A stretch of DNA of 64,000 nt. Source: Streptomyces olivochromogenes. Its GTDB lineage: Bacteria; Actinomycetota; Actinomycetes; Streptomycetales; Streptomycetaceae. The DNA is taken from the NCBI RefSeq assembly GCF_021538895.1, contig NZ_JADDRL010000006.1, forward strand, positions 62,001-126,000, given 5' to 3'. This document shows, in pieces, positions 59,257 through 64,000 of the stretch; the stretch's first letter is position 1; the number at the start of each line of letters is the position of its first letter. A model generated the notes under the pieces. That model was not told where the DNA came from and made no database searches. It was given only the letters and a program-made list of their open reading frames with translations. The translations under genes and the position numbers were made by a program.

Positions 59257-59585
59257 GGCGGTGACGATACCCGCGGGTAACCAGCGCGGGCTCATCGGTT
59301 CCGGACAGTTGCCCGCGTGCGGATTGTCACCCGGGGACAAAGGGCGAGACGACAAGTCCCCTGGTCCGTAAGGGGTTTTGTCGATCCGGAGGGCCTGCCG
59401 GAGAGTGACGGAACCCTCACGTCCGCGAACCCGTGCGGTTGATCCTTTGGGGTTCAAACCCGATAAGCTCCAGTCCGGCGCTGCGAGTTGACGTGACCGC
59501 GATGGGTCGACCCGTAGTGCGTACTCATGAGTGCGGCCTTTGCACATCCCCCCGTTTTCGATCGTGTTGCTTTCGAAGGATGCAG
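59257..59585. promoter_or_regulatory. Intergenic control region of conservon and PucR gene
   Basis: No gene is visible in this 329-bp interval. A candidate conservon promoter is TTGATC (59439-59444) with GATAAG (59462-59467), 17 bp apart, the spacer containing GGGTT-CA-AACCC. Several GTCCCC/GGGGAC runs occur between 59229 and 59365 and could bind a regulator. GAAGGA at 59575-59580 is the ribosome site of cvnA. Confidence 0.45.
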
Positions 59586-61406
59586 ATGGAACTCGCCACT
59601 CCGCCCCCGGCGGCGCGGGCCCCTGTCGCCTGGTACAGCTGGTGGCTGATGCCACTGGCCTTAGGAGGTGGAACGGTTGCCGCCACGTTCATGAGCTCGG
59701 AGCGAATAACCGCCGCCGTGGCCGGTGCTGCCGCCACGGCCGCCGGCTCCGTGTGCGTGCGGCTGCTGATTCGCGCACAGAAACAACTGCGCGGCGCGGA
59801 AGGCAGCTTCCGTACCTCGCAGGCCGAGCACTCGCAGCAGTGGCAGCAGCATGTCGCGGGTCTGGAGCGGAAGTTCGCCGTCGAGCGCGCCGCACTGGAG
59901 ACCCAGCTCGGCGAGCAGGCCTCCGCCCACGAGGCCCAGCTCGGCGAGCGGACGGCGCTCTACGAGGCGCAACTCGCCGACACCTCCCGGGCGTACGAGG
60001 AGCGGCTGGCCGACCAGGCCGCGTCCTACGAGGCGCAGCTCATCGACCGGGCCGAGGTCTGGCAGGACCAGGTCGCCCACCAGCGGACCGCCGTCTCCCG
60101 GCTCGCCGGCGAGCAACTGCCCGACGCGCTGCGGCGACTGCGTGCCGGTGAGGGCATCGACGACCTGCTGCCGGCGACCGAGCGGAGCGCGCAGGTCGAC
60201 AAGGAACTCCAGGCGGATCTCCGCCGGATCCTGCGGACCTCCCTGATCGGTGTCGAGGAGGAGTTCAACCGCTCGACCTCCGCCGAACAGGCCGTGATCA
60301 GCCTCGGCAACCGTATCCACGTGCTGACCAGCAAGCTGCGCGGCCGCCTGCACGAGATGCAGGGCGAGCACGGCCGGCTGCCCGCCGTGGCCCGGGGCCT
60401 GATGGAGCTGGACCAGGAGCTCGGCCCCGCCGACTCCCTCGCCGCGAGCGTCGGCGTGCTCGGCGGCTCAGACCGGCCGGGACGGCAGTGGCAGGAGCCG
60501 CAGCGGCTGCTCAGCGTGGTGCGCGGCGGTATCGGCCGGATCAAGGACTTCCACCGGGTCGAGGTCCGTCATCTGCCCGAACTCGGCGTCGACGGCGGCC
60601 TGGTGGACCACCTCACGCTGATCTTCTCCCACCTCCTGGACAATGCGGCCCGCTACTCGCCGCCCACCGAGCCGGTGCTCGTCTCCGGCAAGGAGGTGCC
60701 GAACGGCGTCGGCATCGAGATCCAGGACTCGGGCAAGGGCCTGAGCGAGGAGAAGAAGCGCGAGGCCGAGCACTCCCTCGCGGGCACCGCGGCCGGACCC
60801 GGTCTCGGTGGCATCTCCGAGGACGCCAACATCGGCCTGCGCGTCGTCGGTATCCTCGCCCGCCGCTACGGCATCCGCGTCACCTTCGCGGACTCGCCGT
60901 GGCTCGGCACCTCGGTGGTCGTGGTGGTCCCGCACAAGTACTTCAGCCCCCTGCCGACGGCCGCCCCGGCCACCACCCCCGCCGCCGGAACCCCGGTCAC
61001 CGGGACCCCCGCCGTCTCCGCCCCCGAGACGGCGACGGTCCAGGGCCCCTTCACCACGGAGGCGTCGGCGGCCGGCATCGCGGACACGGTGGACACCACG
61101 GAGACCACGCCGGGCGGACTGCCCCGGCGCAGGAGCAGGCGCCGCGAGACGGAGCCGGCCGAGCAGCCCGCCCGGACCGAGTCCGCCACCGTCGCCCCTG
61201 TTCCACCGGACGAGTCCTTCGCCGGCCTGGCCGCCTTCGCGACCGCGGGCCGCGATGCCACCGGGTCCGGCCCGTCCGCCGTCGACGGGGAGGCCGCCGG
61301 GGCCGGGCCGAGGCCCGCCGACACGGAGTTCGGCGAGCTCCGGAGGCAGGCGCCCGGCCGCGAGTCCACCGAGCACCGCACTGAAGAGAGTGACAAGTCC
61401 ATATGA
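59586..61406 (+). CDS. cvnA: CvnA, sensor-kinase-like conservon protein with TTA codon
   Basis: This is a 606-residue membrane protein. Two hydrophobic segments (residues about 14-35 and 42-60) are followed by a coiled coil with 10-11-residue periodicity (AQLGER, AQLADT, ERLADQ, AQLIDR). The ATPase domain (residues about 335-460) has the N box HLLDNAARYSPP, IEIQDSGKGLS and NIGLRVVGILARRYG. A Thr/Ala/Pro-rich tail follows. Such kinase-like proteins anchor conservon complexes at the membrane. Codon 26 (59661-59663) is TTA, so translation should need the bldA tRNA. ATG at 59586 fits GAAGGA spacing; ATG at 59580 does not. Confidence 0.9.
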   Translation: MELATPPPAARAPVAWYSWWLMPLALGGGTVAATFMSSERITAAVAGAAATAAGSVCVRLLIRAQKQLRGAEGSFRTSQAEHSQQWQQHVAGLERKFAVERAALETQLGEQASAHEAQLGERTALYEAQLADTSRAYEERLADQAASYEAQLIDRAEVWQDQVAHQRTAVSRLAGEQLPDALRRLRAGEGIDDLLPATERSAQVDKELQADLRRILRTSLIGVEEEFNRSTSAEQAVISLGNRIHVLTSKLRGRLHEMQGEHGRLPAVARGLMELDQELGPADSLAASVGVLGGSDRPGRQWQEPQRLLSVVRGGIGRIKDFHRVEVRHLPELGVDGGLVDHLTLIFSHLLDNAARYSPPTEPVLVSGKEVPNGVGIEIQDSGKGLSEEKKREAEHSLAGTAAGPGLGGISEDANIGLRVVGILARRYGIRVTFADSPWLGTSVVVVVPHKYFSPLPTAAPATTPAAGTPVTGTPAVSAPETATVQGPFTTEASAAGIADTVDTTETTPGGLPRRRSRRRETEPAEQPARTESATVAPVPPDESFAGLAAFATAGRDATGSGPSAVDGEAAGAGPRPADTEFGELRRQAPGRESTEHRTEESDKSI

Positions 61407-61813
61407 CGCAGCAGGGAACCGACGTGAGCTGGGCGCTCCGCGATCTGGTGGAGAGCATCCCCGAGATCCGCTTCGCCCTCGTGGCCTCCAGCGACGGCAA
61501 GGCCATCACCTCATTCGGCGCCGAGGACCCCGATGACGTGGACCGCTTCGCGGCCGTGGTGGCCGGACTGCAGGCGCTGGCCCAGCCGGTGGCCGAGCAG
61601 TTCCCCAAGTACGCGGGCCAGCTGCGGCTCGCGATGATCGAGGTCGACGGAGGTCATCTGTTCGTCGTGCGTGCCGGTGTCGAGACGTATCTGGGCGTCC
61701 TCGCCCGCGAGGGTCTCGACCAGGGCCTGCTCGGACACCAGATGAGGGACCTGGCTCGTCGGATGGGTGAGCTCCTCGGCACCACTCCGCGCCTGGAGGA
61801 GCACTCTGGATGA
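61403..61813 (+). CDS. cvnB: CvnB, roadblock/LC7 domain protein
   Basis: This is a 136-residue protein with a roadblock/LC7 fold (DLVESIPEIRFALVASSDGK, AGQLRLAMIEVDGGHLFVV). It starts four bases before the cvnA stop. In conservons it binds the cvnD GTPase as a regulator, much like MglB with MglA. The short length is standard for the family. Confidence 0.92.
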   Translation: MTQQGTDVSWALRDLVESIPEIRFALVASSDGKAITSFGAEDPDDVDRFAAVVAGLQALAQPVAEQFPKYAGQLRLAMIEVDGGHLFVVRAGVETYLGVLAREGLDQGLLGHQMRDLARRMGELLGTTPRLEEHSG

Positions 61814-62181
61814 GTGCTCCCCGCCGGCCCACGGACCCGTCCGGTCTCGAGCGCTACTACGTCCTCACGGGAGGGCGCAGCGGACCGGGCGGGGCGGCGT
61901 CGAGCCTCGACGTGGCGACCCTCATCGTCTCCCTCACCGCTCCCCATCCGGGTATGCAGCACGAGCACGAGGACATTCTCCGGCGCTGCCGTGATCCGTT
62001 GTCGGTGGCCGAGCTCGGCGCCCACCTCGGATTGCCCTTCAACATTCTCGCGGTGCTGTTGGCGGATCTGCTGGAGGCAGGCCGTATTGAAGCCCGTGAC
62101 CCCATTCCGGCGCACCACGCCGGACGCGGGCCCGACCTCGCGCTCCTTCAGGAGGTACTCAGTGGACTTGAAAGGCTTTGA
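61810..62181 (+). CDS. cvnC: CvnC, DUF742 protein
   Basis: This is a 123-residue DUF742 protein with a winged-helix-like core: ERYYVLTGGRSGP, CRDPLSVAELGAHLGLPFNI and AVLLADLLEAGRIEA. It overlaps cvnB by four bases (ATGA) and cvnD by 20. Conservon C proteins have no known activity but bind partners in the complex. Confidence 0.9.
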   Translation: MSAPRRPTDPSGLERYYVLTGGRSGPGGAASSLDVATLIVSLTAPHPGMQHEHEDILRRCRDPLSVAELGAHLGLPFNILAVLLADLLEAGRIEARDPIPAHHAGRGPDLALLQEVLSGLERL

Positions 62182-62767
62182 CCGTCCCGGCCGGCCCGCC
62201 GCCGGGGGCACTCGCTCGGTCAAGGTGATGATCGCCGGCGGGTTCGGTACCGGGAAGACCACCCTGGTCCGCTCCGTCAGCGACATCAAGCCGCTCACCA
62301 CCGAGGAGACCCTCACCCAGGCCAGCGTCGGCGACGATCACCTGATCGGGGTCGCGGACAAGACCGAGACCACCGTCAGCCTGGACTTCGGCAAGATCAG
62401 CCTCAACGACAGCCTGATGCTGTACCTGTTCGGCACCCCGGGCCAGGAGCGGTTCTGGTTCCTGTGGAACGGCCTGTTCAAGGGCGCGCTCGGCGCGATC
62501 GTCCTGGTCGACACCCGCCGCCTGGCCTCCAGCTTCCGGGCGATCGAGGAGATGGAGCGGCAGGACGTGCCGTTCGTCATCGCGCTGAACATCTTCCCGG
62601 ACTCCAAGCAGCACCCGATCGAGGAGATCAGGGACGCCCTGGACATCTCGCCGGACATCCCCGTCGTGGCGTGCGACGCCCGCGACCGGGCCTCCAGCCG
62701 TGACGTACTGATCGCCCTGATACGTCATTTGAAGGAACGGTCCGCCATCGCACTGGAGCCCCGATGA
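62162..62767 (+). CDS. cvnD: CvnD, small Ras-like GTPase
   Basis: This is a 201-residue GTPase of the conservon type. The P-loop is IAGGFGTGKTTLVRS near residue 24, and switch II is YLFGTPGQERFWFLW. The guanine-specifying NKxD is replaced by NIFPD, as often seen in this family. GTG at 62162 is the start; the longer frame opening within cvnC is rejected. It cycles with cvnB and cvnA in a membrane signalling complex. Confidence 0.92.
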   Translation: MDLKGFDRPGRPAAGGTRSVKVMIAGGFGTGKTTLVRSVSDIKPLTTEETLTQASVGDDHLIGVADKTETTVSLDFGKISLNDSLMLYLFGTPGQERFWFLWNGLFKGALGAIVLVDTRRLASSFRAIEEMERQDVPFVIALNIFPDSKQHPIEEIRDALDISPDIPVVACDARDRASSRDVLIALIRHLKERSAIALEPR

Positions 62768-64000
62768 ACGACCAGAACCTCGACAGTCCCGACGCCCCCC
62801 GCGGCTGCCCGGTCGCGCACGGTTCGGCCGAACTGGCCCGGCTGTACGGGCCCGAGGCGGCGACCGACCCGTTCGGCATCTACGAGCGGTTGCGCAAGGA
62901 GCACGGCGCCGTCGCGCCGGTGCTGCTGGAGGGCGACATCCGCGCCTGGCTGGTGCTGGGCTACCGGGAGAGCCGGCGGGTGCTCGACAATCCCCGCCAG
63001 TTCGCCCGGGACGGGCGGACCTGGCGGGACTGGCGGGAAGGACGGGTCGCGGAGACCTCCGCGCTGATCCCGATGCTCGGCTGGCGTCCCGACTGCGTGT
63101 CCCAGGACGGCGAGCCGCACCGCAGGCTGCGCGGTGCCGTCAACGATGTGCTGCAGGCTGCCGTCGGCCGCGGTATCCGGCGCCACGTCACGCACTTCGC
63201 CAACAAGATGATCGACGGGTTCGCGGACAGCGGCCGCGCCGATCTGGTGGCGGACTACGCCGACTATCTGCCGATGCTCGTGATGTCCCGCATTCTGGGG
63301 CTCGGCGAGGCGGAGGGGCGCCGGCTGGTCGAGTCGTGCGCCCAGGTGCTCAAGGGCGGCGAGGACGCCGTGATGCACGACGGCAGGATCAGGGAGATCT
63401 TCGGTGAACTCGCCGAGCGCAGGCGGTCCGAACCCGGCTCCGACCTCGCCACCGGCCTGCTGGAGCATCACGCGGGTCTCGACCACGACGAGGTCGTCCA
63501 CCACCTGCGCGTGGTGCTGATCGCCGCGCACGTCACGACCAACCTGCTGGCCCGGGTGCTGCAACTGGTCCTGACCGACGCCTCCCGGCTCTCCGGGCTG
63601 ATCAGCGGTCAGCTGAACATCTCGGCGGTGGTGGAGGAGGTCATGTGGAACTCTCCGCCGCTGGCCGTCCTGCCGGGGCGCTTCGCCGCCAGCGACGTCG
63701 AACTGGGCGGGCACCGCATCGAGGAGGGCGACCTGCTCGTGCTCGGTCTCGCCCCGGGCAACCTCGACCCCGAGGTCCGGCCCGACCCGGGTGTCTCGGT
63801 GCAGGGCAACCAGGCGCACCTGGCGTTCGGCGCGGGCCCGCACGAGTGCCCCGGGCAGAGCATCGGTCAGTCCATGATCGAGGTTGCGGTGGACGTCCTG
63901 CTGCACCGGCTGCCGGGCCTGCGGCTGGCCGTGCCGGCGGATGAGCTCACCACGACCGCCTCCACCTGGGATTCCCGGCTGGACGGGCTGCCGGTCGAGT
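62764..64000 (+). CDS. CvnE, CYP157-like cytochrome P450 lacking EXXR (3' end cut by window)
   Basis: About 412 residues are visible, nearly the full length of a bacterial P450. The heme-binding block FGAGPHECPGQ is intact, with the axial Cys at residue 362. The I-helix reads AAHVTT (254-259) instead of AGxxT. In the K-helix the normally invariant ExxR is EEVMW (291-295): Glu remains but Arg is replaced by Met. The CYP157 family of Streptomyces conservons is known for losing this Arg. It is coupled to cvnD by an ATGA overlap. A partner CYP154-type P450, if present, would lie beyond the right edge. Confidence 0.9.
   Translation, partial: MNDQNLDSPDAPRGCPVAHGSAELARLYGPEAATDPFGIYERLRKEHGAVAPVLLEGDIRAWLVLGYRESRRVLDNPRQFARDGRTWRDWREGRVAETSALIPMLGWRPDCVSQDGEPHRRLRGAVNDVLQAAVGRGIRRHVTHFANKMIDGFADSGRADLVADYADYLPMLVMSRILGLGEAEGRRLVESCAQVLKGGEDAVMHDGRIREIFGELAERRRSEPGSDLATGLLEHHAGLDHDEVVHHLRVVLIAAHVTTNLLARVLQLVLTDASRLSGLISGQLNISAVVEEVMWNSPPLAVLPGRFAASDVELGGHRIEEGDLLVLGLAPGNLDPEVRPDPGVSVQGNQAHLAFGAGPHECPGQSIGQSMIEVAVDVLLHRLPGLRLAVPADELTTTASTWDSRLDGLPVE

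Follow-up and report, generated by a model that had tools for sequence, protein, structure and literature searches.

The right end of a 64,000-nucleotide stretch of the Streptomyces olivochromogenes genome (contig NZ_JADDRL010000006.1; the whole stretch is called the window below) carries a P450-bearing conservon, an actinobacterial G-protein system, consisting of cvnA-B-C-D and the cytochrome P450 gene cvnE. The genome is 10.25 Mb in size, and all five genes lie on the plus strand. The cvnA gene (59586–61406) encodes a sensor-kinase-like protein with an HATPase_c domain (PF02518, E = 5.6e-9) and, as judged by eye, two hydrophobic stretches at its N-terminus. It is followed by cvnB (61403–61813) for a Roadblock/LC7 protein (PF03259, E = 7.2e-16), cvnC (61810–62181) for a DUF742 protein (PF05331, E = 5.3e-30) and cvnD (62162–62767) for a small Ras-like GTPase with a GTG start (PF03029, E = 2.2e-28; a match to TIGR00231 was weak and below the cut-off). 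The cvnE gene runs from 62764 to the window end at 64000 and stops 11 nt past it (L005:8012 in the numbering of the extended locus). Its product is a CYP157-type P450 of 415 aa, and the PF00067 match (E = 5.2e-8) spans residues 287–382. The first-pass annotation of the window had described a conservon whose genes overlap by 4–20 bp. Each of the five proteins has a Pfam match and their order is that of a conservon, which confirms the identification, and the overlaps are 4 bp for cvnA/cvnB, cvnB/cvnC and cvnD/cvnE and 20 bp for cvnC/cvnD.

Scanning a collection of named genomes turned up 75 loci that carry a close P450, all titled Streptomyces with the exception of [Kitasatospora] papulosa. Sixty-nine of these are complete for all five genes and make up, together with the window, the 70 operons counted below; L013 (cvnA cut by a contig end), L032 and L046 (runs of N) and the likewise incomplete L051, L061 and L065 were left out. 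Exact peptides from the window's P450 served to pick the loci, and the set therefore leans towards close kin. Among the 69 complete orthologous loci, the 4-bp cvnB/cvnC overlap and the 20-bp cvnC/cvnD overlap are found in every one, and cvnD and the P450 gene overlap by 4 bp in 68 and by 1 bp in the other. The cvnA/cvnB junction is a 4-bp overlap in 18 loci and a gap of 2–5 nt in 51. Over the last codons of cvnC (approximately 62140–62181), the Leu codon CTT is fixed at alignment columns 143, 150 and 153 (64, 64 and 70 of the 70 operons), perhaps locked by the overlapping start region of cvnD.

Codon 26 of cvnA (59661–59663, plus strand) is TTA and encodes Leu26, in agreement with the first-pass annotation. 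It is the sole in-frame TTA across the five window genes, with the P450 gene taken at full length. A tRNA-Leu gene with the anticodon taa (UAA), found by similarity, is present in the genome. The corresponding codon in the 70 operons is TTA in 29, CTG in 27, TTG in 11, ATA in two and ATG in one. TTA also recurs at other places in these operons. The column of cvnC residue 46 has TTA in 18 of the 70 orthologues, the window operon not being among them; Leu is not conserved at this column, yet 18 of the 21 operons having Leu there use TTA. Codon 6 of the P450 gene is TTA in 14 operons, 13 of which also have the cvnA-26 TTA, and rarer sites were found at cvnA codons 41, 56 and 60 (five operons), cvnC codon 120 (one operon) and the P450 N-terminus (one operon). 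At least one TTA is present in 54 of the 70 operons, and in 52 it precedes cvnD, lying in either cvnA or cvnC. The Leu codons of cvnB and cvnD are never TTA in the 70 operons. A sequencing error as the source of this TTA, or of the K-helix Trp described below, was considered and rejected because both recur in other genomes.

The cvnA-26 TTA occurs on either side of the deepest (midpoint) split of the tree, in 15 of 26 and 14 of 44 operons. At conserved Leu columns, the sharing of a codon across this split, given its presence, is 0.365 for TTA, 0.113 for TTG and 0.007 for CTA, the TTA value resting mainly on one column. The value for CTT is higher (0.581), in our view because of the three columns at the cvnC end that overlap cvnD. 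A tree model of the cvnA-26 TTA gave a root probability of 0.19 with 3.4 gains and 7.9 losses; the codon may be ancestral with many losses or may have arisen by several parallel gains, and the model favours neither. When 295 genomes of the window's genus were scanned with a degenerate cvnA motif, 48 matched, two of which look unrelated by eye, and TTA was found in 29 of the 48, the window's own genome included. The 12 other DUF742 loci of the genome have no TTA inside the matched conservon-domain stretches; a few TTAs in their frames precede the matched domains, where the starts were not individually checked, and some of the genes are cut by contig ends or unmatched. Taken at the sequence level, these comparisons support the view that relatives keep an in-frame TTA far beyond the prediction by chance, and the retention itself looks selected.

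The P450 has lost two features of the family while keeping its heme ligand. As the first-pass annotation had noted, EEVMW (E291-E292-V-M-W295; 63634–63648, plus strand) replaces the EXXR motif of the K-helix, and the heme-ligand Cys362 in HECPGQ (63847–63849, plus strand) is intact. Both Trp and Cys are found in 70 of 70 orthologues. An EXXR aligning elsewhere in homologues was also considered, and no Arg occupies the K-helix column in any of the 70. Together with the adjoining position of the gene, which overlaps cvnD by 4 bp, these residues bear out the earlier assignment to CYP157-type P450s without EXXR. In the I-helix, which reads AAHVTT (63523–63540, plus strand), the usual acid is gone; CYP154C1 aligns here as AGHETT. 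Neither Asp nor Glu is present in this block in any of the 70 orthologues, 50 of which have (A/T)AHTTT, and AAHVTT, one residue shorter, is restricted to the four-member clade of the window. The loss of this acid adds weight to the earlier suggestion that the P450 may sense rather than catalyse, although the suggestion as a whole stays a proposal. The AlphaFold model of the protein has a mean predicted local distance difference test (pLDDT) score of 74.9, and its fifteen best matches in the PDB, CYP154C enzymes among them, have template modelling (TM) scores of 0.73–0.77.

Loss of EXXR is a described trait of CYP157, with EVLW in CYP157A and EQSLW or EQILW in CYP157C (PMC3599690). The window P450 resembles CYP157 as a conservon P450 in which Trp replaces the EXXR Arg and the heme Cys is retained, but differs from both CYP157A and CYP157C in its K-helix (EVMW). 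Its heme block is closer to CYP157C than to CYP157A, and it shares 46% identity with the genome's other, EQSLW-bearing conservon P450 (L006), itself a presumed CYP157C. In the I-helix, the CYP157C member Svu024 has AFETT with the acid, whereas the CYP157A member Svu023 has GHQPT and is acid-free like the group studied here (PMC3599690). In a third conservon of the genome (L105), cvnD is followed by two P450s, which read EVLH and ETLR in that order. Relatives of the first one (L105:6858-8093) were found in 44 of the 61 genomes searched, and 25 loci (L115–L139), including the query gene itself and two short matches and leaving out weaker matches, were inspected. A cvnD-like match lies upstream on the same strand within approximately 0.5 kb in all 25. 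At the K-helix position 13 have Trp, eight His and four Arg, and the I-helix acid is kept in 24 of the 25. With Trp or His in 21 of 25, loss of the EXXR Arg is thus common in cvnD-adjacent P450s beyond the present group.

The CvnA proteins of this group also differ from the 11 other CvnAs of the genome, since they have no His at two helix positions (residues approximately 243–278; 60312–60419, plus strand). The first position is Ser in 62, Gly in eight and His in none of the 70, and is His in six of the 11 others. The second, corresponding to an LDH column in 10 of the 11 others, is Gln in 70 of 70. A His one turn before the first position is kept in 68 of the 70, and the ATP-binding motifs look intact by eye. 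In CvnA8, the phosphoacceptor His is H183 and the domain limits are V168–L228 (PMC13343842). The first helix position would correspond to H183, as judged solely by its distance from these published limits.

Upstream of cvnA, a promoter-like bipartite element, TTGATC-N15-CCGATAAG, is located at 59439–59467 on the plus strand. In the relaxed form TTGAT-N16-CCGATA, 67 of the 70 upstream regions share it with an unvarying spacing, the exact CCGATA missing in 10 of the 70, and the genome contains a single instance of TTGATC-N14-16-CCGATAAG. Just downstream on the same strand is a second conserved block, GCGAGTTGACGTG (59483–59495), each base of whose core GCGAGTTGAC (59483–59492) is kept in 63–70 of the 70 operons; conservation is weaker at 59493–59494. 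This block is a possible operator or regulator site. A promoter for the flagellar-type sigma factor WhiG was considered with the 15-nt spacing, which pairs TGAT with CCCGATAA and leaves three mismatches in all. The published rule asks for TAAA at −35 and GCCGATAA at −10 with at most two mismatches (PMC8325347). The element is not called a WhiG promoter because three mismatches exceed this limit: CCCGATAA is one base off the −10 sequence, but the −35 sequence fails. Set against the consensus for housekeeping-type promoters, the region can equally possibly be read as TTGATC, a 19-nt spacer and TAAGCT.

A CYP154 partner, which the first-pass annotation had expected to the right, does not adjoin the operon. 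The next gene (L005:8099-9799) is convergent on the minus strand and encodes a protein of 566 aa that is not a recognised P450; it has no Pfam or NCBIfam match, its structure model has a mean pLDDT of 34.8, and it lies near the operon in 10 of the 75 loci. Its motifs DDMTD and NDLERD recall isoprenoid synthases. With flanks of approximately 7 kb or less screened, a second P450 (28–31% identity) was found in 11 of the 75 loci, starting approximately 2.4 kb beyond the operon at one locus and at 4–6.5 kb in the ten others; in the window's genome another P450 is located approximately 8.5 kb beyond the operon. The idea of a conserved gene neighbourhood was rejected: the other flanking genes tried in the 75 loci, named by eye, are amidohydrolase-like (14), transporter-like (13) and TetR-like (15). 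The upstream query gave 47 matches, most of them limited to its first part, a part that reads antisense through the cvnA promoter region.

From these features we propose a bldA-gated G-protein complex in which the P450 serves as a heme-based sensor or scaffold, a proposal that we consider about evenly poised between right and wrong; the gating of the whole complex is, by itself, plausible. The five proteins would be made from one message of overlapping, probably translationally coupled genes. The UUA codon near the start of cvnA would make translation of this message, including the downstream GTPase and P450 by polarity, depend on the bldA tRNA, and the complex would therefore accumulate mainly when that tRNA is abundant, typically in late growth or development. 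There is a precedent in which a UUA codon lowers, when bldA is mutated, the expression of the gene coupled downstream of it (PMC2000904). In the 18 orthologues with the codon in cvnC, cvnA and cvnB would consequently escape the gating. The P450, which keeps the fold and the heme Cys but no longer has either the K-helix Arg or the I-helix acid, would most likely be a heme-based sensor of a ligand or gas, or a scaffold, that touches the ATPase domain of CvnA and sets the state of CvnD. CvnE proteins accompany CvnAs without sensor domains, and CvnE11 has been modelled as touching the HATPase domains of CvnA11 (PMC13343842).

The gating would fall away if cvnA started at Met36 (59691), past the TTA, and left it untranslated. 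Met36 is the start preferred by a codon-usage gene caller, which for this reason reported no in-frame TTA in the window. This start was rejected as extremely improbable: all 26 members of one deep clade lack Met36, 21 of the 34 residues from 2 to 35 are at least 90% conserved, 15 of these 21 being encoded by more than one codon (synonymous change), and the ribosome-site block AAGGATGCAG-ATG before 59586 is conserved. The codon could also be neutral, inherited from an ancestor or present by chance and uninformative on regulation. A genus-wide survey found most TTA codons to be poorly conserved (PMC10327506), and 16 of the 70 orthologous operons have no TTA. Their lack of the codon also weighs against the gating proposal, since gating would be dispensable in some species. 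A further point against that proposal concerns the cvnA-26 and cvnC-46 TTAs. They never occur together in the 70 operons (Fisher p = 1.1e-5, a test that ignores kinship), but this exclusion is largely inherited by clade: only two clades have the cvnC form, and a comparison of independent pairs on the tree did not reach significance. Neutrality nevertheless appears quite unlikely to us, since it has to accommodate the occurrence on both sides of the deepest split, the complete absence of TTA from cvnB and cvnD, and the operons without the cvnA-26 codon that have TTA at cvnA 41, 56 or 60, cvnC 46 or the P450 N-terminus in several lineages. Conversely, selection might demand one UUA upstream of cvnD, so that a lost codon is replaced elsewhere. 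In 52 of the 54 TTA-bearing operons the codon is in cvnA or cvnC, and mapped TTA gains other than at P450 codon 6 number 5.8 on branches ending without the cvnA-26 TTA and 1.3 on branches ending with it, for tree lengths of 3.38 and 3.19. The one-sided chance of this excess is approximately 0.07 by our own arithmetic and not significant, and compensation is for that reason suggestive only. Gains at P450 codon 6 run the opposite way (0.95 without and 3.6 with the cvnA-26 TTA, matching the 13 of 14 codons that stand beside it), and the cvnC-46 form represents approximately two gains and shows nothing in independent pairs. We thus regard compensatory relocation as a tentative idea, somewhat more likely to be wrong than right.

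For the P450, the alternative to the sensor or scaffold role is a working monooxygenase despite the missing EXXR, with the operon regulating, or being regulated by, a P450-modified metabolite. That absence is by itself no proof of absent catalysis, and the I-helix Thr259 is kept, like the heme Cys, in 70 of 70 orthologues. The model on which a retained fold is read is also weak at the heme loop (residues 341–361, pLDDT below 50). In favour of an enzyme, CYP154C proteins that act on macrolides and steroids are among the close structural neighbours. A conservon is, moreover, part of indole-prenyltransferase clusters, and a P450 is part of some conservons (PMC3617294). The joint loss of the K-helix Arg and the I-helix acid in all 70 argues otherwise, as does the lack of a second P450 adjoining the operon, redox-partner genes not having been searched for. 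Catalysis consequently seems rather unlikely. The sensor role can be extended to conservon P450s at large. They would then be one class of heme sensors in which Trp or His has replaced the EXXR Arg on repeated occasions, the oxygen-activating acid also being lost in the present group, and would act as inputs for sensor-less CvnAs, the relay here being bldA-gated by a UUA in cvnA or cvnC kept upstream of the GTPase. This extension is speculative and, taken as a whole, doubtful.

The closest known systems are conservons 9–12 of Streptomyces coelicolor (e.g., cvn9/rar), which have the same gene order and families, a P450 gene after cvnD (none being named for conservon 13) and a CvnA without an extracellular sensor domain, as is also the case here by eye (PMC8510531). 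A TTA in the cvnA of these P450 conservons is not described in the parts of the literature examined, and in this respect the window operon differs. Recurrent TTA codons in a conservon have been reported: cvnC13 (SCO7465) has TTA in nine of 12 orthologues (Table 2 of PMC4255298, which also mentions clusters with TTA “in one or another gene”), and a DUF742 gene has a conserved TTA at nt 40–42 (PMC10327506). That known DUF742 case involves codon 14, while the present group uses cvnA codon 26 or cvnC codon 46; the main-text list of 11 conserved TTA sites in the latter paper includes no cvnA or kinase gene. A lanthipeptide cluster shows a similar cluster-level dependence on TTA with a varying carrier gene, although it is not a G-protein system. 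As for the input, CvnF8 activates CvnA8 and is, as modelled for CvnE, an accessory protein encoded beside a sensor-less CvnA, but it is a GAF protein that was tested biochemically, whereas CvnE is a P450; CvnE and CvnF proteins have been proposed as inputs or modulators of CvnA (PMC13343842).

Loss of EXXR in CYP157, TTA in the cvnC of another conservon, and the P450 as a sensory input (proposed in 2026) are therefore already known. In a literature search whose reach stopped short of supplements and most subscription papers, no report was found of the cvnA-26 TTA or its varying place, nor of Trp or His in the K-helix being general among conservon P450s. As far as searched, the operon-level TTA that differs in place, the I-helix acid loss in 70 of 70, the K-helix Trp or His in 21 of 25 further conservon P450s and the fixed-spacing promoter-like element in 67 of 70 upstream regions are apparently new.

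Altogether, the pattern in this operon is genuine and backed by evolutionary comparison, in a system of a known kind, and bldA gating and sensing by the P450 are reasonable proposals built on it. If the neighbour of cvnD does act as a heme sensor without catalysis, a gas, the redox state or a small hydrophobic ligand could be the signal received by the conservon, a kind of system whose inputs are poorly understood. A UUA that the operon retains while its position varies would give comparative work a clean sign of translational gating and would help to detect further operons under bldA control that are overlooked when single sites are surveyed.

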